NCBI GenBank assembly: GCA_011389655.1
Contig: JAABTX010000015.1
Span: 1-43,535 of the forward strand
Origin: Thioalkalivibrio sp.
GTDB taxonomy: Bacteria; Pseudomonadota; Gammaproteobacteria; Ectothiorhodospirales; Ectothiorhodospiraceae
Direction of reading: 5' to 3'
Length of the DNA stretch: 43,535 bases
The notes below the pieces were generated by a model. That model was given only the letters and a program-made list of their open reading frames with translations. It was not told the origin of the DNA and searched no databases. The translations under genes and the position numbers were made by a program. Positions 950 to 11,509 of this stretch are shown here, one piece after another (position 1 is the first letter of the stretch; each line of letters starts with the position of its first letter).

Positions 950-3913
950 CTACTTTTCCTCGTTCATTTCGACGACCGATTCGGTCGTCGCGTCCGAGCC
1001 CTTCTCCTGTTTCGAACTGCGGCTGCGGCGCGCGGGTCTCTTGCGCGTCGGCTTGTCGGCCTCGGCGGCCTCCTCTCCGGCGGGTTGGGTCGCGCCCGCA
1101 GCAGGTTCGGTGCGTGCGTCCGGCGCTGTCCCCGGCTCGGTGCCGGCGTCATCGGCCGCCGGTGTTGTCTTGTTCGCCGTGGAACGGGGCTTGCGGGCCC
1201 GGCGTGGACGTCGGGATTTTGCCTGTGCCGCCTCGTCTTCGTCGGCCGCCTTTGCCGTCACGGACTTCGCGCCTTCCTCGGTCTTCCCTTTCGGCACGTC
1301 CTCGGCCGGGGCCGGCTGCTTCGGCGATCCAGCGGACTTCCCCTCTTCCGCAGCGGATGGTTCCGCCGGAGGCGGCGCCTGCCTGGCGGCGGTCGGAGGC
1401 GGGGCGGGTACCGCGGCATCGCCGGGCGCAACCGGGGTCACGGGCTCTGAGCCGGTCCCTTGATCGCCGGATTCCGCGGCAGCCGAGGCGGCCATACGGG
1501 CCAGGGCCGCACGGGCCTCCCGCTGGCGCCTTTCGGCGGCGTCTTCGGCATCAGCGTCAACCGTGCTCCCTGCATCCTGTGCGGAAGGGGCGGTTTTCTG
1601 CGTCGGTGCCTCCGTCGGTGGAGCGGATTCGGCATCCTGACTCACGGGCGCATCCGCGTCCCCCCCGGGCGCGGGCGGCGCAGTATCGTCCTTCCGCGCG
1701 GTGGCAGGTGGCGCAGTAGATTCGGATCCGCCCGGGGTGGATGCCGGACGCGGGTCCCGCTCGGCGCCCGCGTCCTGCTCTTCGGTCCTGCGCTCGGATT
1801 CCGCCCCCGCGGGACGGTTGCGGTTGCGTCGGCGTCCGCCACGGCGGGAACGCCGGCTGCGGGTACGCGCGCCCTCGTCCCGTGCCTCCTCGTCCGCTTC
1901 GGGGTGGGATTTCCCGGCGGCGGCCTTGCCCGCTTCTGCGGGCTTTCCGGTGTCTGGCTTCTCCGTGCTCGGGCGCTCGTCCCGGGCCTTGCCGGTGCCG
2001 GCGGCCTTGCGGGTCTTCGTGTCGCCGGACGGCTTCGCCTCCGCCGAGTCCTTGCGCGTACGCTCGCCGCGCCGGCCTCCGCGGCGTCGATCGCCGGATG
2101 CCGGTTCGTCGTCGTTGCGCCTGCGTTCACCGCGTGCGGGCCGTCCGACCGGTTTCTTTTTCGAATCGTCCTCGGGCGCTGCAGTCTCCGGCTCCTCCGT
2201 TGGCATGCTGCTGGCCGGGAAGAGCGCCGCCCAGATCCGTGCGAAGAACCCCGGCTGTGTCACGGGTTGCGGTATCGGGACCGCGGCACGCGCGGGTGTC
2301 GGGCTCGGGGGTGGTGCCGATGCCGGGATGTTCTGCACCAGCGGACGATCAGGGCGCGCCCGCCGCTCCAGTTCCGCGATTTCCTCAGCCGTGTCGGTCT
2401 CTTCAACGAACTGATAGGAGCTCTTGCCGGCCAGTTCGTCCTCCTGCCCGTCATCGCGGATCCGCCGCACCGTGTAGTGGGGCGTCAGGAGCTGGTTGCT
2501 GGGGAGGATGCTGATGTCCACGTCGTGACGCTCCTCGATGTCGGCCAGGGAATCCCGCTTCTCGTTCAGCAGGAAGGTGCCGACGTCCACCGGTACCTGG
2601 GCGAGCACGATGCTGGTTCGCTCCTTCATCGCCTCCTCTTCCACGAGGCGCAGGATGGACAGCGCCAGCGATTCCACGCTGCGGATCTGGCCCTGGCCCT
2701 GACAGCGGGGGCAGGTGATGTGGCTGGATTCTCCCAGCGAGGAACGCAGGCGCTGCCGGGACATCTCCAGCAATCCGAAGCGGCTGATCCGGCCCACCTG
2801 GACCCGTGCCCGGTCCATCTCAAGGGCCTTGCGCAGCCGCGTCTCCACCTCGCGCTGGTGGCGGTTGGAGCTCATGTCGATGAAGTCGATCACGATCAGA
2901 CCGCCGAGATCGCGGATGCGCAGCTGGCGGGCGACCTCCTCTGCGGCCTCGAGGTTGGTGTGAAACGCCGTCTCCTCGATGTCGCCCCCCTTGGTCGAGC
3001 GCGCCGAGTTCACGTCGATCGAGATCAGCGCCTCGGTGTGATCGATGACCAGCGCGCCACCCGCGGCGAGCCCCACGTTCCGGTCGAACGCGCTCTCGAT
3101 CTGGCCCTCGATCTGGAAGCGGTTGAACAGCGGCACCGGGTCCGCATAGTGGCGGAGCTTGCGCAGGCTGTTCGGCATCACGCGCTCGACGAACTCCTGT
3201 GCCTGGCGATAGACGGTCTCGTCGTCGATCACGACCTCGCCGACGTCGTTGCGCATGTGATCGCGCAGGGCCCGGATGATGACGTTGCTTTCCTGGTGGA
3301 TCAGCGCCGGGGCCTGCGCCTCGGAGGAGGCCTCGAGGATGGCGGCCCAGAGGGACGTCATGTAGTCGAGGTCCCACTGCAGTTCCTCGGTCGTCCGGCC
3401 GACGCCTGCGGTGCGGGCGATCACCCCCATGCCCTCGGGGATCTTCAGGTCCGCCAGTGCCTCGCGCAGTTCGGCGCGGTCCTCCCCCTCGATGCGCCGC
3501 GAGACTCCGCCGGCACGGGGATTGTTCGGCATCAGCACAAGGTAGCGTCCGGCGAGGCTGATGTAGGTGGTCAGCGCCGCGCCCTTGTTGCCGCGTTCTT
3601 CCTTTTCCACCTGCACCAGCAACTGCTGGCCTTCCTTCAGGAAGTCGCGTATCGGCTTGTCGGTCTCCTCGGGAGCACCGATTGCCGAACGGGCGATCTC
3701 CTTGAACGGCAGGAAGCCGTGGCGTTCGGCCCCGAAGTTGACGAAGACCGCCTCGAGGCTTGGTTCTACCCGGGTGATCCGGGCCTTGTAGATGTTGGCC
3801 TTCTTGCGTTCGCGAGAGGGAAGTTCGATATCAAGATCGTAGAGGCGCTGGCCATCGACCATCGCCACACGCAGCTCTTCCGGCTGCGTGGCATTGATGA
3901 GAATCCGTTTCAT
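950..3913 (-). CDS. rne: Ribonuclease E, degradosome endonuclease
   Basis: 987 residues. The catalytic half (about 1-505) has the S1 RNA-binding domain (about 38-120), a 5' sensor/RNase H region, and the DNase I-like domain with metal ligands Asp300 ([12 protein letters not shown]) and Asp343 (VIDFIDM). These match E. coli Asp303 and Asp346 with a shift of three. The zinc-link is Cys401/Cys404 in CPRCQGQG, which supports the tetramer. The start [10 protein letters not shown] is the family start. The C-terminal half (about 510-987) is low complexity, rich in Ala, Pro, Glu and Arg, with separate Arg-rich patches (for example [40 protein letters not shown]) resembling the RNA-binding tail of degradosome scaffolds. 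The enzyme makes the initial cuts in mRNA decay and processes rRNA and tRNA. A predicted promoter at 4221-4249 gives a ~300-nt leader, in line with leader-mediated autoregulation known in E. coli. Confidence 0.97.
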
Positions 3914-4191
3914 GCATTGAACTCGTCTGGGCGTCTCTGCCTTCCGCGAGCGATTGCGCGCGCAGGGCGCTCCGGGATGCGGATGTGGGCGCCAGCGGGG
4001 GGCGGGACATGTCCACTGAAGACAGTCGCCCGCCCAGCAGCCAGGCTGGCAACAGGAACAGCGCCAGCAGGTGCTTGCAGGCGCGCTCAGGGAAAAGACA
4101 GGACTGGGTTAGAAGAATAGGTATCACGATCGCTTGCAGCGAGGACCGGACGGCCGGTGCGGCCATGCCGGTGTGTGTACGAGGGAAGGCC

Positions 4192-4223
4192 ATTGTCGAT
4201 AAAGCGCCGTTCCGGCCGACAAT
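4192..4223. repeat. Inverted repeat at the predicted rne transcription start
   Basis: ATTGTCG at 4192-4198 is repeated in inverted orientation as CGACAAT at 4217-4223, with 18 bases between. The right arm overlaps the predicted rne -10 box and the spacer covers the predicted start site. It could be an operator, or a hairpin at the very 5' end of the mRNA, where structure would affect 5'-end sensing by RNase E. Confidence 0.4.
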
Positions 4224-4249
4224 CTAGGGCAAAAACGTCTGACTGGCAA
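4221..4249 (-). promoter_or_regulatory. Predicted sigma70 promoter of rne
   Basis: Read on the minus strand, TTGCCA (-35, 4249-4244; 5 of 6 to consensus) is followed by a 17-base spacer and TAGATT (-10, 4226-4221; 4 of 6). A T-rich stretch just upstream of the -35 could act as an UP element. The predicted start is near 4214, about 300 bases before the rne ATG. Confidence 0.55.
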
Positions 4250-4366
4250 GCAAAAAGATTGTTGGTCGAGGGACAGCGGGAGCTTGCCGGTGCCAGTGGT
4301 TCCCGGCGGGGGCGGCCCGGATGCGGCTATGCGGGCATGTGCGCAGACGACGCCCGCACGTCCCAC

Positions 4367-5908
4367 TTAGTGGGCGGCACCTGCACCGACGCGGCGCAGC
4401 CAGTCGGCCAGCGGTTCCTCCGTGGAGCCGCGCTTGCGCAGCATGTCGACGATCTGCTGCTGCGGGCCAAAGCGGTTCACGTCGATGGAATGCGCCCTGG
4501 TTGGACGGGCGTACTCCCTGCGCGGCGCAGACGGCAGCGGCAACGGGCTCTCCCACATCCGGTCGAGTTCATCCGTCTCCATTGCCCAGACGCGCTGGAT
4601 CTCCGCCATCTCCTCGGAGCTGAGCACCTCGCGGGCGGGTGATGGCACACCGGTCGCGGCGGGCGTTGCGCGAGAAAGGGCCGACTGGCTCGACGGGCCG
4701 CCCGGCGCGGGCGCTGGCTCGGGTTGCTGCGGATCCGGGGCAGAGGGAGGGGCGGGAGCCATGCCGGATGTGTCGATCAGCTCGCGCAATCGGGAGAGCA
4801 TTGCCTCGTTTCCGGGTTCGCTGGCAAGCCGCTCCAGTGATCGTGAGAGGTCGATCGCAGGCTCGCCGCGCCGGTTCCAGTAGGCCTCGGCGATGGAGTC
4901 GATCCAGGCCGCGATCGTGGCCGCCTCGGCATCGTTGTCCAGTGCGTCCGCAATCCGTGTGCGCAACCGGTCGAGGACCGTGGCCAGGTCGGCCTCCGGC
5001 CCGATCCCGGCGTTTGCCGGGGCGTCGGCCGGTGTCCCTGCCTGCGTCCGGGCCGGATGCGGGCGCCCCGGAAGCGAGCGCAGGCGCCGCATCCAGGACT
5101 CGATCGACCCGTCACGGTCGGGCAGGCGGGCGAATGCGCGATCGAGCGCATCAGACAGCCGGAGGAAGGTGCGGGCCGACGGATCGCTGTCGGGTAGCAA
5201 CGCAACGGGACGCTGCAGCATCGCCGCCGCGCTGAGACTCTCGTCGCGAGGGACGAAGCCGAGCAGCCGCATGCTCGCACCGCTGTGTTCCTGCACGAGG
5301 CTGCTGAAGCGGTTGAAGACCTCCCAGGCCTCGTTCTGGTTCGCGACACGGTTGACCAGCACCTGGTAGCTGCCGGGGCGCTCGTTCTCCAGTTGCTGCA
5401 CCAGTTCGCTTGTGTCGGCGAGACAGGCGGAGTCGGGCGTCAGGACGAGAAGGATCAGGTCCGCGGAGGCGATGAAGGCGGGGGACGCCCCGCCACCGGC
5501 GGCCGTGTCCACTAGGAAGCAGTCGCACTGTTCCACCAGGATGGTGAACTCGTCGGTGAGGTGGCGCTCCTGCGCCGGTGTGAACGGGCCGTGGCGTCCG
5601 AGTGTTCCGGCCGAGGGGAGAAGCCTGAGGCCATGCTGGCTTTCGAGCATGACCCGGGAGAGCGGGTACTGCTCGAACAGCATCCGCTCCAGCTTGTGCC
5701 GCGGCTGCAACCCGAGCAGAAACAGCACGTTTCCGGGGCCGGAATCGAAATCCCAGACGCAGACGCGGCGGTCGGCCTTGGCGAGGGCCAGGCCAAGGTT
5801 AACCACGACGCTCGACTTGCCGACACCATCCCTGCCGCTGACGACAGCGACCACGCGCGGGGAGCCGTGTCCCGCGGGAGCCTGCAGTCCTGTATCTGTC
5901 GTGGCCAT
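4367..5908 (-). CDS. FleN/FlhG-like MinD/ParA-family ATPase with long C-terminal extension
   Basis: 513 residues from the ATG at 5908, which has AGGGCGG upstream and begins just before the family fold; the frame stays open upstream but the added residues look non-coding. The P-loop is SGRDGVGKSS (residues 24-33): Lys31 is kept, but the signature lysine of the deviant Walker A motif (normally GKGGVGKT) is Arg26. CVWDFDSGPGNVLFLLGLQP (50-69) resembles the DADxGxANVDVLLGL segment of FleN/FlhG, and FLVDTAAGGG matches the switch II region. The fold ends near residue 270. The rest has a helical stretch and a Pro/Ala linker and is unlike standard FleN. FleN proteins regulate flagellar number and the c-di-GMP-responsive FleQ. 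No flagellar gene is nearby, but a c-di-GMP enzyme is encoded divergently. The role is inferred, not shown. Confidence 0.78.
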   Translation of the reverse strand: MATTDTGLQAPAGHGSPRVVAVVSGRDGVGKSSVVVNLGLALAKADRRVCVWDFDSGPGNVLFLLGLQPRHKLERMLFEQYPLSRVMLESQHGLRLLPSAGTLGRHGPFTPAQERHLTDEFTILVEQCDCFLVDTAAGGGASPAFIASADLILLVLTPDSACLADTSELVQQLENERPGSYQVLVNRVANQNEAWEVFNRFSSLVQEHSGASMRLLGFVPRDESLSAAAMLQRPVALLPDSDPSARTFLRLSDALDRAFARLPDRDGSIESWMRRLRSLPGRPHPARTQAGTPADAPANAGIGPEADLATVLDRLRTRIADALDNDAEAATIAAWIDSIAEAYWNRRGEPAIDLSRSLERLASEPGNEAMLSRLRELIDTSGMAPAPPSAPDPQQPEPAPAPGGPSSQSALSRATPAATGVPSPAREVLSSEEMAEIQRVWAMETDELDRMWESPLPLPSAPRREYARPTRAHSIDVNRFGPQQQIVDMLRKRGSTEEPLADWLRRVGAGAAH

Positions 5909-6231
5909 TGCGCCGCCCTGGGCCTGATGATGAAAATCGTCCGGGTGCAGGGCATCCGGGGATCGCGAAAGCTCTATCTCCTCCCCATGAACGCTAGCAG
6001 ATCGGCCCGCGTTTCGCCACGCGGATCGGACAGACGGTTCCCGGGGCGGGTGCGGGCGGAGCCCATGGCGCGGGCGCGCGGGTGAGGCGGCGTGCGGACC
6101 ACGCGCGGGGACCGAACTGGGGCGCTTGCGTATATACTTTCCGCGAAATCCATGCGGGCGGGCGGCTCGCGGTGCGCCCGGGGCCGGATGCCGGGGAAGT
6201 CCGGACGTGCCCTTCAAGGTCGGGGAGCGTG
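5909..6231. promoter_or_regulatory. Divergent regulatory gap (323 bases) between the ATPase and HDOD genes
   Basis: No gene is evident. The minus-strand side holds the weak AGGGCGG ribosome site of the ATPase gene. The plus-strand side holds a TATACT -10-like box at 6133-6138 and the GGGAG site of the HDOD gene. Divergent starts from one gap allow shared control of the ATPase and the HDOD/GGDEF-EAL pair. I see no obvious operator palindrome or FleQ-type site. Confidence 0.4.
6133..6138 (+). promoter_or_regulatory. Possible -10 box for the HDOD/GGDEF-EAL operon
   Basis: TATACT (5 of 6 to TATAAT) in the A/T-rich patch GCGTATATACTTTCC, 93 bases before the ATG at 6232. The hexamer at the 17-base spacing (GACCGA) is not a good -35, so activator help or a false match are both possible. 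Confidence 0.3.
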
Positions 6232-8301
6232 ATGGTTGCGCAACGAAGCTACACCGGTGTTGTTCCGGGTCTGCCCCAGGTACTCCTCGCGATCCTGGAA
6301 GGCCTGCAGGGCGCCGGGCCGGAGGAGACGGAGGTGGCGGGCTGGATCCAGCGGGATCCGGGGCTCGCGCTCGAGCTGCTCTGCGCAGCGCATGCGGAAC
6401 CCGGCGCGCCTTCGGCCGGCTGCCACAGCCTCGAGAGCGCCGTTGCCGCGCTGGGGGAGGATGCGGCGCGCGCGCTGGTCCTTTCCCGTATCTCGCAGCA
6501 GTTCTTCGCTCCGCTGCCGCCGGCGGTATTCGACGCGCTGCAGAGGGCCTGGCGATACGCCATGATCGCCGCCGACCTTGCGCAGGTGCTCGCGACCCTG
6601 ACGCGTTACCGGGATCCCGAACAGGCGCGAATCTGTGGGCTTCTGCTCGGCGTGGGGCCCACCGAGCTTATCGCGCGGCAGCAGCCCGGTTACCTGGCGG
6701 CCCTTGACTCGCATCCAGTCACGGAAGAGCTGCTTGAGGCGCAGCGCGACCACTTCGGGACCGACCAGATCGAGCTCGGGATCCGGGCGGCGGAGCGCTG
6801 GTGTCCCGGCGGCTTCGCGGTCGATGCGCTGCGCTATCAGCTCGCGTCGACGGAAGAGGTGGGCGATGCCCATCACCTGGTGAAGATCGTGAATCTCGCC
6901 GGCGGACTCGCGGCGGGTGCGGCGACCGGCGACGCCGGCGTCGATGCGGCCGGAACGCTGTTCGGCCTGGAGCCGGAACTGACGCGGGCGCTGCGTCAGC
7001 GGGTATTCGCCGACGTCGATCGGCTCGCTGGTGCGCTTGGGCTCCCGACCGCCGATGTCGAACCGGATGTGGCGATGTCCGGCGCCTATCGTGCGCTGGG
7101 CCAGCGTCTGGATCTTGCCGGGCGATTGACACAGTGCCGGTCGCAATTGCTGGAAGCCCGGGGTCCGGCGGAGATACGGGCCGCGGTGCGGGCGGGGGCC
7201 AGGAGCCTGCTGGGTGTCGAACGAAGCCTGCTGTTCACCGCCGACAGCGGCGCCAGCCAGTTGAGCGCCTGGCTCGACGACGACGACCAGCCGACCTTTG
7301 TGCTCAGGGTCGCGCCGGGGCGAAGCCTGGTGGCAGACTCGCTGATCGGGGGTGATGCGCGCCGGGGTGAAGGGACGTCCGTGATCGACCGGCAGCTGGC
7401 CGGCGTGATGGGGGCCGAGCAACTCTGGTGTCTCCCGCTGGTGCACGGCGCGGCGATGCTCGGTGTCCTGGTCCTGGGACTGGCCCCGGGGTCTGTCGAT
7501 GCCGGGGGTGACCAGGAAGGTGTGGCCGGGGCGCTTGCTGCGGAGATCGCCGCCGCCTTGTCTGCCCGTGCCACACCTGAAGCAGGGGGCAGGGCCGGCG
7601 TTGCGGTGGGCGATCCCGGGGAAAGGGAACGTCTGCGTTTCCGGATATCTACGCCACTGACCGTGATCCACAATCACCTGGAGATGCTGCGGGCCCGGAT
7701 CGGCAACGAGGCGTCGGCCGGCGACAGCCTGGACCGGATTCGGGCCGAGACGCTGCGCATCCAGGAGGTCCTCGCGGACTCCGGGAACGACATGCCGGCC
7801 GCTCCCGCTGGCGTGCCGCTGAACGAGCCGGTGCGGGAGGTGGTGTCCGCACTCGAGTCCAGCCTGCTGGCCCCCGCCGGCATCAGCCTGAGGCTCGATC
7901 TCGATCGCCTCGAGCCTCGGGTGACAGTGGCGGCGGGCGACCTGCAGGCGCTGCTGCGCCACGTGCTCCGTCACGCCGGCGAGACGCTGGAACGGGGATC
8001 CGAGGTCCTCGTCGCGACCCGGGGCGGGGTGAGCATGAACGGACAGGAGAATGTACAGTTGGAGGTCAGGGACGACGGACCCGGGCTGCCGGACGCGGTC
8101 CGCGCCCGGCAGCCCGGGTCCGGACCGGCGGAGTCGGAGTCAGCGTGGGGGGAGCCGGCGCTGGCGCGGGTCCGAGAGCTGACAGAGGCGATGGGGGGCA
8201 CGATGATCTGTACCAGTGACCGCTCGGGCACCCGGTTTCAATTCCTCTTGCCCGGGAGACCGTCCGAAGCCGAGGCCGACAAGCGGCGGGGGCATGCATG
8301 A
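6232..8301 (+). CDS. HDOD-GAF protein with degenerate histidine-kinase module (predicted pseudokinase)
   Basis: 689 residues from the ATG at 6232, chosen for its GGGAG ribosome site and because the HDOD fold starts at once (VVPGLPQVLLAIL, residues 10-22). HDOD spans about 10-200 (IQRDPGLALELL, LESAVAALGEDAARALVL) and a GAF-like region about 305-445. A kinase-like module follows: a dimerisation helix (FRISTPLTVIHNHLEML, 470-486) and an ATPase domain (about 535-675) with a good G1 box DDGPGLP (614-620). In family members of this layout the helix reads HEx(N/T)NPL; here the phospho-acceptor His is Phe470. Both N-box Asn positions are His (LLRHVLRHAGE, His577 and His581). It therefore probably neither autophosphorylates nor binds Mg-ATP normally. 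It overlaps the next gene by ATGA, pointing to a joint role with that c-di-GMP enzyme. Confidence 0.82.
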   Translation: MVAQRSYTGVVPGLPQVLLAILEGLQGAGPEETEVAGWIQRDPGLALELLCAAHAEPGAPSAGCHSLESAVAALGEDAARALVLSRISQQFFAPLPPAVFDALQRAWRYAMIAADLAQVLATLTRYRDPEQARICGLLLGVGPTELIARQQPGYLAALDSHPVTEELLEAQRDHFGTDQIELGIRAAERWCPGGFAVDALRYQLASTEEVGDAHHLVKIVNLAGGLAAGAATGDAGVDAAGTLFGLEPELTRALRQRVFADVDRLAGALGLPTADVEPDVAMSGAYRALGQRLDLAGRLTQCRSQLLEARGPAEIRAAVRAGARSLLGVERSLLFTADSGASQLSAWLDDDDQPTFVLRVAPGRSLVADSLIGGDARRGEGTSVIDRQLAGVMGAEQLWCLPLVHGAAMLGVLVLGLAPGSVDAGGDQEGVAGALAAEIAAALSARATPEAGGRAGVAVGDPGERERLRFRISTPLTVIHNHLEMLRARIGNEASAGDSLDRIRAETLRIQEVLADSGNDMPAAPAGVPLNEPVREVVSALESSLLAPAGISLRLDLDRLEPRVTVAAGDLQALLRHVLRHAGETLERGSEVLVATRGGVSMNGQENVQLEVRDDGPGLPDAVRARQPGSGPAESESAWGEPALARVRELTEAMGGTMICTSDRSGTRFQFLLPGRPSEAEADKRRGHA

Positions 8302-10448
8302 TCGGTTTGGACGACGAAGCCGAACCGCGCTCCGAGGTCCGCATTCTGCTGTCGGATGACGACCCCCGCATGCTCGAGAGCCTGCGCGGGCTTCTGAGCA
8401 TGCACAAATACCAGGTAGACACCGCACCGGGCGGACGCCAGGCCCTGGAAATGCTCGAGCGGAAGCAGTATGACGTGCTGCTCCTCGACCTGGCGATGCC
8501 GGATGTCGATGGTCACGAGGTGATGCGCGGGATGAAGGAGCGCAGGATCACGACCCTGACCATCGTGGTCAGCGGCAATCCCTCGCTCGATGGCATCGCC
8601 ACCGCGCTGCGGGCGGGTGCCTACGATTACCTGAAGAAGCCCTACATTCCCGAGGAACTGCTGGCGACGGTGAACAACGCGGTGCGCAAGAAGCGGCTGG
8701 AGGAGAGCCACAAGGTGATCCAGGTGCGCCTCAACCGCTCGGAACGCCTGCATCGTCTGATCGTGAACCACTCGCCGGATATCGTGTACATCCTCGACGA
8801 CCAGGGACGCTTCAGTTTCCTGAACGCCACCGTGAGCAAGCTCCTCGGCTACACCCCGGACGAACTCCTGGGCGTGTCCCTGCTCGATGTCATGGAGGAG
8901 GACCAGCAGGAAAAGGGACGGTATTTTCTCGAGCAGGCGAAGCATCCCTACGATGAGGTCCGTTCCCTCGAAGTGGCCCTGCGGCCGAAGTTCCGGGGAC
9001 GCTCGCGCAGGCATTTCGAGCTCGTGATCTGGCCGATGCTGGACGACGAGAACCCCTACCACGATGGCGGCCGCTACCACACCTACGGCACCGCGCGCGA
9101 TATCACGGAGCGCATGGAGGCCGAGGAGTTCATCAGCTTCCAGGCCTATCATGACCTGCTGACCCGCCTCCCGAACCGCGCGCTGTTCAAGGACCGCTTG
9201 AACATCGCGCTGACCCAGGCGGCGCGCGAGGGCCATCAGCTCGCGGTGATGTTCATCGACCTTGACCGATTCAAGGTGATCAACGACTCCCTCGGGCACA
9301 CGGTCGGTGACCGCCTGCTGCAGGCCGTCAGCGAACGCCTGCTCAACTGCGTGCGCAAGGGCGATACCCTGTCCCGCTTCGGCGGCGACGAGTTCACGCT
9401 GCTGCTCCCGGAAGTCCGGGACTGGGAATCCGCGGCACAGGTCGCGGAGAAGATCCTGGCCAGCATCCGTGCACCGTTCAAGCTGGATGGCCACGAGATC
9501 TTCGTTGGCGCGAGCATCGGCATCGCAATGTTTCCCTCCGGCGGCGCCAGCATGGACGCGCTGATCAAGAATGCCGACATTGCCATGTACCGCGTGAAGA
9601 ACACCGGCCGTGACGGATTTCAGCTCTACACCCCCGAAATGGCGGGCGCCACCCAGCGCCTGCAGCTCGAGCAGGAGATGCACCGCGGGTTGGCCCGCGA
9701 CGAGTTCTTCGTCGTGTACCAGGCCCAGATGCACGCTGAACGCGGTGAGCTGATCGGTGTCGAGGCGCTGGTGCGCTGGCGACATCCCAAGCTCGGCTGC
9801 CTCGAGCCAGCCGAATTCATCTCCATCGCGGAGGAGAGCCGCCTGATCATGGAGCTGGACCGCAACACGCTGCAGCGGGCCGCCCGGGAGCTCACTCAGC
9901 ACCGCCGGCGCTTCGGCAAGGAGCTGCGGCTCTCGGTGAACGTCTCCCCCGTGATGGTCTCGCGCGAGGACTTTGTCGAGGGCGTGCTGGACATACTGCG
10001 GCAGGAGGACTTCCCGCCGGGGCTGCTGGAGATCGAGATCACCGAGAACCTGCTGCTCAACGACCGCAAGGACGTGATCGACAAGCTGCACCAGCTGAGC
10101 GAAGCCGGCGTCCAGATCGCGATCGACGACTTCGGCACCGGCTACTCCTCACTGAGCTATCTGCAGAAGCTTCCGATCCATACCCTGAAGATCGATCGCA
10201 GCTTCACGCAGCACATCAGGAACTGCGAGGAGGGGGCCTGCCTGGTGAACGCCATCGTGGCGATGGCCCAGGGGTTGCACATGGAGATCGTGGTCGAGGG
10301 TGTGGAGACCGAGATGCAGCTGGAGTACCTGAGGTCCCTCGGATGCCCGGTGGTCCAGGGCTTTCTCTACGGCCCGCCCGACACGCTGGAGAAGGTCTGG
10401 ACTCAGGCGACGGGCCGGAGCCGGGAAGCCAGCGCCGCCGGGTTGTGA
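8298..10448 (+). CDS. Response regulator with PAS, GGDEF and EAL domains (c-di-GMP turnover)
   Basis: 716 residues. REC (about 14-128) has the acid pocket Asp20/Asp21, phospho-acceptor Asp64 (LLLDLAMPD), Ser92 and Lys114, all that phosphorylation needs. PAS spans about 145-275 (HSPDIVYILDDQGRFSFLNATV). GGDEF follows at about 282-445, with an intact FGGDEF active site (362-366) and an inhibitory I-site RKGD (353-356). EAL covers about 455-700, with EALVRW (489-494), ENLLLN, IDDFGTGYSS (609-618), VVEGVETE and QGFLYGPP. Both the cyclase and phosphodiesterase signatures look active, so net output is probably set by REC and PAS. The start overlaps the stop of the HDOD gene (ATGA at 8298-8301), indicating translational coupling. 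The partner kinase is not evident, because the coupled protein lacks the phospho-accepting His. Layout and motifs are firm; the physiological output is not. Confidence 0.93.
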   Translation: MIGLDDEAEPRSEVRILLSDDDPRMLESLRGLLSMHKYQVDTAPGGRQALEMLERKQYDVLLLDLAMPDVDGHEVMRGMKERRITTLTIVVSGNPSLDGIATALRAGAYDYLKKPYIPEELLATVNNAVRKKRLEESHKVIQVRLNRSERLHRLIVNHSPDIVYILDDQGRFSFLNATVSKLLGYTPDELLGVSLLDVMEEDQQEKGRYFLEQAKHPYDEVRSLEVALRPKFRGRSRRHFELVIWPMLDDENPYHDGGRYHTYGTARDITERMEAEEFISFQAYHDLLTRLPNRALFKDRLNIALTQAAREGHQLAVMFIDLDRFKVINDSLGHTVGDRLLQAVSERLLNCVRKGDTLSRFGGDEFTLLLPEVRDWESAAQVAEKILASIRAPFKLDGHEIFVGASIGIAMFPSGGASMDALIKNADIAMYRVKNTGRDGFQLYTPEMAGATQRLQLEQEMHRGLARDEFFVVYQAQMHAERGELIGVEALVRWRHPKLGCLEPAEFISIAEESRLIMELDRNTLQRAARELTQHRRRFGKELRLSVNVSPVMVSREDFVEGVLDILRQEDFPPGLLEIEITENLLLNDRKDVIDKLHQLSEAGVQIAIDDFGTGYSSLSYLQKLPIHTLKIDRSFTQHIRNCEEGACLVNAIVAMAQGLHMEIVVEGVETEMQLEYLRSLGCPVVQGFLYGPPDTLEKVWTQATGRSREASAAGL

Positions 10449-10505
10449 AGACTCCGCATCAACGATCGATGGCGTGCCGCCGCGTCGGCCGTGCACCGTC
10501 GCGGG

Positions 10506-10534
10506 TTCTTCCCGCGCGGTGAATCCGCTAGCAT
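10506..10534 (+). promoter_or_regulatory. Weak promoter candidate before rluC
   Basis: TTCTTC (10506-10511), a 17-base spacer and TAGCAT (10529-10534) end 6 bases before the rluC ATG at 10541. The same stretch holds a CGCGGG-TTCTT-CCCGCG hairpin (10500-10516) that could instead end the upstream transcript. Both readings are weak. Confidence 0.22.
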
Positions 10535-10540
10535 CTTGCG

Positions 10541-11509
10541 ATGGCCAAGCCTTCCGGTCCCATCCTCCTGAGTGTTCCCGCCGTGGCAGAGGGTCAGCGT
10601 CTGGACAACTTCCTGCTGCGGCAGCTGAAGGGCGTTCCCCGCAGCCTGGTCTACCGACTGGTGCGCAAGGGGGCCATCCGGGTGAACGGGCGCCGGGTCC
10701 GGGTCGAGCGCCGGGTGTCTGGCGGGGACGAGATCCGGGTGCCTCCCCTGGATCGTCCCGCCGATGCCGGTGCCGAGACGCCGGTGCACGTCCCGGATGG
10801 GGTGCTGCGCCTTCTGCGAGCCGGGATCATCCACGAGGACGACGACTACCTGGTGCTGGACAAACCCGCCGGCCTGGCGGTACACGGCGGTAGCGGGTTG
10901 TCGTTTGGCATCATCGAGGCCGCACGCCTCCTGCGCCCGGGGGAACCGCTGGAACTGGGCCACCGGCTGGATCGCGAGACCAGCGGGTGCCTCGTGCTCA
11001 CCAAGAGCCGGCGCGGACTGCAGGCCTTTCACGAGGCCCTGCGCGCCGGGCACGTGGCCAAGCGCTACCTCGCGCTGGTGGCCGGACGCTGGCAGGGTCC
11101 GCCGCGACGCTGCGATCTGCCGATCGCTAAGGAACGGGACGGCACCGGCCGCAGACGCATGCGGGCGGTGGCACAGTCCGATGCCGCCACCGCGCGATCC
11201 GCCATCAGCCTGTTCACGCCGGTGGAGCCGTACGGACAGTTCACGCTGGTGGCGGTCGATATCGGCACCGGGAGAACCCATCAGATACGGGTCCACGGAG
11301 GGGCACTGGGGCACCCGGTCGCAGGCGATCACGACTACGGAAACCCGGAGGCCAACCGGACGGCGCGGGCCGCGGGACTGCAGCGCATGTTCCTGCACGC
11401 CCAGTCGATCCGCTTTCCCGACTGGCAGGGAGAGGAGCGGCTCTACTCCGCGCCCCTGCCGGACGACCTGCAGGATGTGCTGCAGACCCTCGCGGAGGGC
11501 GGCCGATGA
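10541..11509 (+). CDS. rluC: 23S rRNA pseudouridine synthase RluC
   Basis: 322 residues, close to the family length. An N-terminal S4 RNA-binding domain (about 17-75; RLDNFLLRQLKGVPRSLVYRL, then GAIRVNGRRV) is followed by the RluA-type catalytic domain with the signature HRLDRETSG (141-149), where Asp144 is the catalytic residue. In E. coli RluC modifies three uridines (955, 2504, 2580) of 23S rRNA; the same role is inferred. In E. coli and Pseudomonas rluC sits beside and divergent from rne. Here about 6.6 kb with three signalling genes separates them. The stop overlaps the next start (ATGA at 11506-11509), so the HAD phosphatase gene is co-translated. Confidence 0.93.
   Translation: MAKPSGPILLSVPAVAEGQRLDNFLLRQLKGVPRSLVYRLVRKGAIRVNGRRVRVERRVSGGDEIRVPPLDRPADAGAETPVHVPDGVLRLLRAGIIHEDDDYLVLDKPAGLAVHGGSGLSFGIIEAARLLRPGEPLELGHRLDRETSGCLVLTKSRRGLQAFHEALRAGHVAKRYLALVAGRWQGPPRRCDLPIAKERDGTGRRRMRAVAQSDAATARSAISLFTPVEPYGQFTLVAVDIGTGRTHQIRVHGGALGHPVAGDHDYGNPEANRTARAAGLQRMFLHAQSIRFPDWQGEERLYSAPLPDDLQDVLQTLAEGGR

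Follow-up and report, generated by a model that had tools for sequence, protein, structure and literature searches.

The locus lies within a window of 43,535 nucleotides, the whole stretch of DNA that was analysed, from Thioalkalivibrio sp. (contig JAABTX010000015.1, assembly GCA_011389655.1). A gene for a FleN/FlhG-like ATPase of the MinD class (positions 4367-5908, minus strand), assigned from its open reading frame, Pfam, and fold and profile comparison, is separated by a divergent intergenic region (5909-6231) from two plus-strand genes, one for a sensor protein of 689 amino acids with the domain order HDOD-GAF-DHp-CA (6232-8301; open reading frame, Pfam and motif reading) and the other for a REC-PAS-GGDEF-EAL response regulator (RR) of 716 amino acids (8298-10448; open reading frame and Pfam). 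By their coordinates, the kinase and RR genes overlap by 4 bases. The flanking genes, both identified by Pfam, are rne (RNase E; 950-3913, minus strand) and an rluC-type pseudouridine synthase gene (10541-11509, plus strand). A simple scan detected no sigma-70-like site in 5909-6231 and, over 3800-10700, two promoter-like sites (8179 and 4249); altogether, nothing of use came from scanning for promoters and terminators, and no riboswitch or other Rfam family reached the gathering score in the window. A defence system was also considered and rejected, PADLOC giving no match for the ATPase or the kinase and only weak REC matches for RR.

The kinase and RR genes adjoin in 21 of the 22 same-genus genomes holding RR, and in all 19 genomes outside the genus that carry a full-length HDOD kinase. 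Of the 19 genus genomes in which its presence could be decided (G003 and G018, in which the loci stop at contig edges, being set aside), 18 have the ATPase gene next to the pair, as do 12 of the 19 genomes outside the genus, the remaining seven having none there. The cassette was found also at places other than rne/rluC, including in other families, and within the genus RR is carried away from rne/rluC in 14 of the 22 RR-bearing genomes; the two flanking genes are therefore outside the unit. Its recurrence across many genomes, also at other positions on the chromosome, makes the set more than a chance gathering. That the genes are mere chance neighbours at rne/rluC would be in keeping with this position not being common to those 14 genomes, but is refuted by the order retained elsewhere and in other families, and we give it next to no credence. 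The independent scatter of homologues, set beforehand as the refutation of a single signalling unit, is not what the genomes show. The three-gene unit is thus real and recurrent, with a core of kinase and RR and an ATPase that is dispensable, as in those seven genomes and in the sister genome G012. In agreement with the claim that no such system has been described, a full-text search of open-licence PMC papers found none describing the combination of HDOD kinase, RR and ATPase.

The product of 6232-8301 gave Pfam matches to HDOD (1e-20), GAF (1.8e-05) and HATPase_c (3.8e-07), and to HisKA at 0.00047, below the curated cut-off; the HDOD domain belongs to its family with 74.5 bits against a curated cut-off of 22.9. 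Within the kinase part, the phospho-accepting His of the DHp domain, expected of an active kinase, is replaced by Phe, the Asn of the N-box by His, and the G2 box (GLGLS) is lost, with D.GPG of the G1 box kept. In the kinase motif table of 48 rows, one of which has no readable kinase part, the phospho-His was present in 41 of the 47 readable rows, and the six rows without it (the window, L026, L028, L031, L032 and L066) also lack the first Asn of the N-box and the GLGLS box. The duplicates L023 and L024 (of L026 and L028) were dropped from the tree and the motif table, and three cut-off loci (L010, L011, L021) and four extra GGDEF-EAL genes near cassettes (L036, L037, L040, L042) were left out of the alignments. 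By motif, the window sensor is kinase-dead. The earlier wording, HDOD-GAF-kinase-like, holds for the domains but not for the catalytic boxes, and the intact paralogues are unlinked.

In the window genome, one intact kinase gene lies behind a PilZ gene on contig C300, together with a canonical ATPase gene of its own, and a second is on contig C19. Such an unlinked intact ATPase-kinase pair is present in all six genomes with a dead linked kinase, most of which are fragmented assemblies, and is absent from all 14 genus genomes whose linked kinase is intact (Fisher p 2.6e-5, amounting to about one event on the tree). The dead kinases form one clade in the tree and the C300-type kinases another, so that the co-occurrence does not stand for many independent events. 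The sister group of the C300-type kinases is formed by those from the yaiI/pgm-locus cassettes and not by the G012 kinase, and their partner may accordingly be a different one; warnings about long branches and composition apply to the HDOD tree. In seven genomes a PilZ gene is close to the C300-type pair, which is not accompanied by an RR. At the rne/rluC position, G012 has the order rne-kinase (intact)-RR-rluC without the ATPase, and G014 has rne-RR-rluC, the linked kinase and ATPase genes being gone and an intact kinase lying on contig C234.

The dead kinases share with the G012 kinase 39.9% identity in DHp and 40.3% in CA, against 60.9% and 56.4% for the C300-type kinases, whereas the corresponding values for dead and C300-type proteins are 36.0 and 37.2% in the HDOD part and 41.4 and 35.2% in GAF. 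Judged from these identities, decay is concentrated in the kinase module, and the HDOD part and GAF do not lag. The dN/dS ratio was 0.275-0.329 for the dead kinases over dS 0.26-0.73 (0.30-0.35 for the kinase part in window pairs), compared with 0.098-0.172 for the intact kinases and 0.046-0.093 for RR. As estimated from these ratios, selection on the dead kinases is relaxed, yet clearly purifying (dN/dS below 1).

The response regulator encoded at 8298-10448 matched Response_reg (1.6e-25), PAS, GGDEF (2.7e-52) and EAL (4.6e-70) in Pfam. The phospho-Asp, the RxxD I-site, and the catalytic residues of GGDEF and EAL are intact in the alignment of 21 rows, in which REC is missing from the frame-split row L037. 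RR is present in one copy per genome in the set of relatives, for which a quick tree was made. Special conservation of the docking helix was considered and rejected, because rne-type RRs share only 60.6% identity with the others in the alpha-1 helix, against 56.9% over the whole REC. Two irregular copies were also observed: RR is split over two frames in G005 (L037), and the match in G383 (L078) begins only at profile position 63.

The ATPase, of about 513 amino acids, belongs to the CbiA/ParA/MinD class by Pfam and carries a C-terminal extension of about 240 amino acids that ends in a conserved short motif, RFG.Q...LR. Its MinD-like fold is closest to FleN/FlhG, and FleN is its closest solved relative both by fold and by profile (5j1j, 4.4e-84). 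The Walker A sequence is GRDGVGKS in the window and mostly GKGGVGKS or GKGGVGKT in relatives outside the lineage. The N-terminal DQAxxLR, which we take to be the FleN/FlhG motif, is absent from the window ATPase and, among 43 matching open reading frames, present only in L086 (fleN); it is an imperfect marker, since L062, outside any cassette seen, also lacks it. The place next to flhF is taken by L086 (contig C169), the genome's own FleN, and the cassette ATPase is thereby ruled out as that protein, so that the earlier label FleN-like stands for fold and profile and not for identity. An assignment as MinD was likewise rejected (NCBIfam minD_bact, 68.3 bits against an equivalog score of 212.9). 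The dN/dS of the rne-lineage ATPases was 0.21-0.27, against 0.30-0.37 for other cassette ATPases, and by this measure the former are no more relaxed than the latter. The ATPase tree contains fragments with absurd branch lengths, and no conclusion was drawn from its deep branches.

A dead linked kinase together with an intact copy elsewhere means that signalling may be rewired. The locus is proposed to be a two-component c-di-GMP module, in which the phosphodonor of RR is now an unlinked paralogue and the linked pseudokinase is retained under selection, a proposal to which we give an even chance. In the ordinary version of the module, the histidine kinase, a soluble protein with HDOD and GAF domains, would phosphorylate the adjacent REC-PAS-GGDEF-EAL protein, this protein would make or break c-di-GMP, a change in either direction being conceivable, and the FleN/FlhG-type ATPase would place the pair at, or couple it to, a target that may be the flagellated pole. 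In the window lineage, the linked kinase would have lost catalysis and persisted as a pseudokinase, and the phosphate of the single RR would most likely come in trans from an unlinked intact paralogue (C300, with the second intact kinase on C19). The pseudokinase may bind RR or phosphorylated RR, or else pair up with the intact kinase, thereby tuning the output as DivL does on DivK. Against this proposal, a protein in the course of being lost, as has happened to the linked kinase of G014, could likewise have a dN/dS near 0.3, and the ATPase is missing beside the seven units outside the genus. A more elaborate reading, which we consider somewhat unlikely, is that the pathway is splitting in stages: the catalytic kinase half would have become unlinked with an ATPase copy, the half left beside RR would be a DivL-like reverse sensor reading or gating RR phosphorylation, and G012 (intact), the six kinase-dead genomes and G014 (deleted) would represent the stages.

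That the window kinase is merely decaying, made redundant after the unlinked kinase took over and having no pseudokinase function, would accord with the RR kept alone between rne and rluC in G014 and with the faster evolution of the dead proteins; we hold it to be unlikely, given the full-length reading frame kept in six genomes, the purifying dN/dS of whole protein and kinase part, the retained gene order and, in the window, the retained 4-base overlap. Still less probable is an RR that has become phosphorylation-independent in this lineage, gated by PAS or by the HDOD protein alone, with the C300-type pair as a separate system for another partner. The PAS domain of RR, the PilZ neighbourhood of the C300-type pair with no RR adjacent, and the tree position of its kinases away from that of G012 all point in this direction, but all phosphorylation residues of REC are retained, RR is the sole one of its kind per genome, and the DHp and CA of the C300-type kinases resemble those of G012, of which the RR is of the rne type. 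The first reading, in which the ATPase would serve the c-di-GMP pair as its output or to localise it, is a tentative one, rather short of an even chance. Besides the kinship with FleN/FlhG, it is favoured by the presence of FliM, within the genus, in 21 of 22 ATPase-bearing genomes against 3 of 8 ATPase-less ones (p 0.002), and by the non-flagellate genomes G012, without the ATPase, and G070, with an interrupted one. Outside the genus, however, FliM is present in four genomes that have no intact cassette ATPase (G189, G283, G284 and G383), and G084 (88% complete) has the ATPase without FliM; the ATPase-flagella link is valid in the genus and fails outside it. Neither the FleQ N-terminal domain (PF06490) in the window genome nor DQAxxLR in the ATPase was found. 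The remark that flagellar genes are absent nearby agrees with the 11 window reading frames put to Pfam, but does not extend to the L078 unit, which lies beside fliL-fliM-fliP-type genes.

To our knowledge, no biochemical role has been settled for HDOD domains, and we know of no partner for many MinD-class ATPases; the conserved set of HDOD kinase, c-di-GMP regulator and ATPase offers a defined and testable context for both. If the linked kinase was lost in stages, one could ask how a pathway relocates its kinase and what a pseudokinase does after catalysis is lost. The set resembles two-component c-di-GMP systems of a histidine kinase and a REC-GGDEF-EAL protein in its adjacent, overlapping sensor and RR genes and in an RR with intact REC, GGDEF and EAL, but differs in the HDOD input on the kinase, in the ATPase gene as a frequent third member, and in the linked kinase being dead by motif in this lineage with intact paralogues unlinked. 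Compared with FleN/FlhG, which it resembles by profile and fold, the cassette ATPase lies outside the flagellar cluster in a genome with a separate FleN, lacks the N-terminal DQAxxLR motif of that family, and has the long C-terminal extension and, in the window lineage, the altered Walker A. Other HDOD proteins tied to motility in PMC11004494 and PMC4114195, GsmR and SadB, are there an HDOD response regulator and SadB itself, and not HDOD-GAF kinases beside a GGDEF-EAL regulator. According to PMC4211667, the Caulobacter pseudo-histidine kinase DivL binds phosphorylated DivK and has neither kinase nor phosphatase activity. The likeness to DivL lies in a histidine-kinase fold persisting after the loss of catalysis; homology is not claimed, the input of the window protein is HDOD-GAF and not PAS, and its RR is a predicted c-di-GMP enzyme. 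For the window pseudokinase, residue loss and continued selection are what is seen, and they would be consistent with a DivL-type role through putative binding.

The three genes of the cassette and both of its flanks were confirmed by ORF and Pfam calls at their stated positions: a FleN/MinD-like ATPase gene (4367-5908, minus strand), the genes for an HDOD-GAF-kinase protein (6232-8301, plus strand) and a REC-PAS-GGDEF-EAL response regulator (RR; 8298-10448, plus strand), which overlap by 4 bases, and the flanking rne (950-3913, minus strand) and rluC (10541-11509, plus strand). C35, the contig that makes up the window, belongs to a genome of 3,455,818 bases in 367 contigs. In 30 genomes of the same genus (G000-G029), one strong RR copy per genome was identified by profile search in 22; among all 58 genomes searched, 23 matched, G050 being the single one outside the genus. 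An HDOD-kinase gene adjoins the RR gene in 21 of these 22 (the exception is G014), and the ATPase gene adjoins the kinase gene in 18 of the 19 genus genomes open to judgement, G012 being without it; G003 and G018 were excluded from this count because their loci stop at contig edges. Both rne and rluC flank the unit in G000, G012, G014, G016, G017, G023, and G027, rne alone was seen in G028, and the remaining 14 genus units sit at other places.

The kinase profile was also run over 369 genomes of the class, giving a full-length kinase in 14 non-genus genomes and partial matches in two (G134 and G112), and over a sample of 398 genomes of the phylum, which added five full-length kinases, all from the same class. 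The RR gene lies directly downstream in all of these 19 genomes. The ATPase gene is beside the pair in 12: seven have it in divergent orientation, three have it past the 3' end of the RR gene, G070 has a divergent copy that is interrupted, and in G253 one predicted ORF separates the divergent copy from the pair; an intact ATPase was not found in the units of G189, G283, G284 (fragment only), G299, G383, G676, and G742. The core is therefore kinase plus RR, with the ATPase as a frequent third member, and the proposal that the three genes form one unit was upheld by co-occurrence and gene order. The set is a genuine c-di-GMP cassette of the two-component type, conserved and accompanied by a FleN-like ATPase.

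Various genes accompany the unit. A second GGDEF-EAL gene lies just past and convergent with the RR gene at L036, L037, L040, L042, and L076, about 34-38% identical to RR where measured (the first four); that of L040 gave PAS, GGDEF, and EAL matches and no REC match. At L038:5700-8259 (G013), the cassette ATPase has as neighbors a chain-length gene of the Wzz type and a ParA-like gene akin to those of tyrosine autokinases, as in exopolysaccharide loci. At L056:518-4536 (G084), the ATPase is followed 3', on the same strand, by a gene whose 190-aa product gave no convincing Pfam match and by genes for an OmpA-domain protein, a Ras-family small GTPase, and an HD-domain (HD_5) protein. At L099, L100, and L102 (G460, G558, and G523), the ATPase-containing cassette adjoins a gene resembling fatty acyl-CoA reductase genes (by Pfam on L099 only), a neighbor from which these genomes may be Marinobacter.

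Of 47 readable HDOD-kinase rows, 41 have the phospho-His together with the ATP-binding-domain boxes. The six rows without them are the window, L026, L028, L031, L032, and L066 (G000, G016, G023, G017, G027, and G003), in which F, V, or L stands in place of the phospho-His, the N-box lacks its first N, and the GLGLS box is missing; the phospho-Asp, I-site, GGDEF, and EAL of RR are kept. Judged by its residues, the linked kinase of the window lineage is catalytically dead. Its model in the window (mean pLDDT 77.5) displays the HDOD, GAF, DHp, and CA parts, and a disordered stretch lies where the G2 box would have been. Dead kinases gave dN/dS values of 0.275-0.329, compared with 0.098-0.172 in intact kinases and 0.046-0.093 in the RRs; relative to RR, dN was 4.3-7.4 times as fast in dead and 1.2-2.7 times as fast in intact kinases. 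Since, in addition, the drop in identity to the G012 kinase is confined to DHp and CA, sparing HDOD and GAF, the dead kinase is read as having lost catalysis with some function probably remaining, slow decay being a tenable alternative. A lone HDOD kinase at L069 (G026, where RR and ATPase are absent) keeps the His with altered surrounding residues, on a long branch (0.42 vs 0.028 in G022); its neighbors, a DUF188-like gene and a gene resembling one beyond RR in L043, place it, from N-terminal sequence, at the position of cassettes in related genomes.

Two more full-length HDOD kinases with intact boxes are encoded in the window genome, on C300 and C19. The C300 kinase is encoded behind its own ATPase (Walker A GKGGVGKS), with no RR adjacent; in seven genomes the C300-type ATPase is preceded, at a distance of 0.2-2.4 kb, by a PilZ gene, the contigs of G017 and G014 beginning too close to judge. 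The C19 kinase (L055; G000:C19:990-3032) and one at G023:C263 (L072), likewise with intact boxes, are third HDOD kinases of their genomes, each on a short contig that gave no RR or ATPase match. An unlinked intact kinase is present in 6/6 genomes with a dead linked kinase and 0/14 with an intact one (Fisher 2.6e-5), a co-occurrence that amounts to about one history on the tree because the dead kinases form one clade (support 100/99), sister to the G012 kinase (100/100), and the C300-type kinases another, sister to those of the yaiI/pgm locus. The gene order is rne-kinase(intact)-RR-rluC in G012 and rne-RR-rluC in G014, where kinase and ATPase are gone and an intact kinase is on another contig. 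In the window lineage, the most probable source of phosphate for RR is an intact paralogue at an unlinked locus, by putative phosphorylation in trans.

The ATPase domain is closest to FleN/FlhG (profile 4.4e-84 to 5j1j; fold 1.1e-19), with a C-terminal extension modelled at low confidence (whole-model mean pLDDT 66.8). Walker A is GKDGVGKS in the rne lineage and GRDGVGKS in the window; dN/dS of the rne-lineage ATPases (0.21-0.27) is not above that of other cassette ATPases (0.30-0.37). The cassette ATPase is not the fleN of the genome itself, which sits on C169 beside flhF (Pfam SRP54) with FliM on the same contig; further flagellar names there are from N-terminal sequence only. FleQ was not found in the window genome by PF06490 search. 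FliM is present in 21/22 ATPase bearers vs 3/8 non-bearers of the genus (p 0.002; several genomes incomplete). Outside the genus, 11 of 16 unit-bearing genomes tested have FliM, and ATPase presence does not track it, so that a flagellar role like that of FleN is a lead only. The unit adjoins FliL, FliM, and FliP genes at L078. At L061:6780-8493 (G070), the ATPase frame is interrupted, kinase and RR are retained, and the genome gave no FliM match.

No paper describing the kinase/RR/ATPase set was found by a literature search of open-licence PMC papers. In published work, HDOD proteins are tied to motility (PMC11004494, PMC4114195), EAL-HDOD proteins are described in Acidithiobacillus (PMC6416229), and orphan ParA/MinD ATPases (PMC10241942), DivL as a repurposed kinase (PMC4211667), and the FleQ-FleN pairing (PMC10723142) are dealt with. 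The parts of the cassette are ordinary; their combination is, as far as searched, new.
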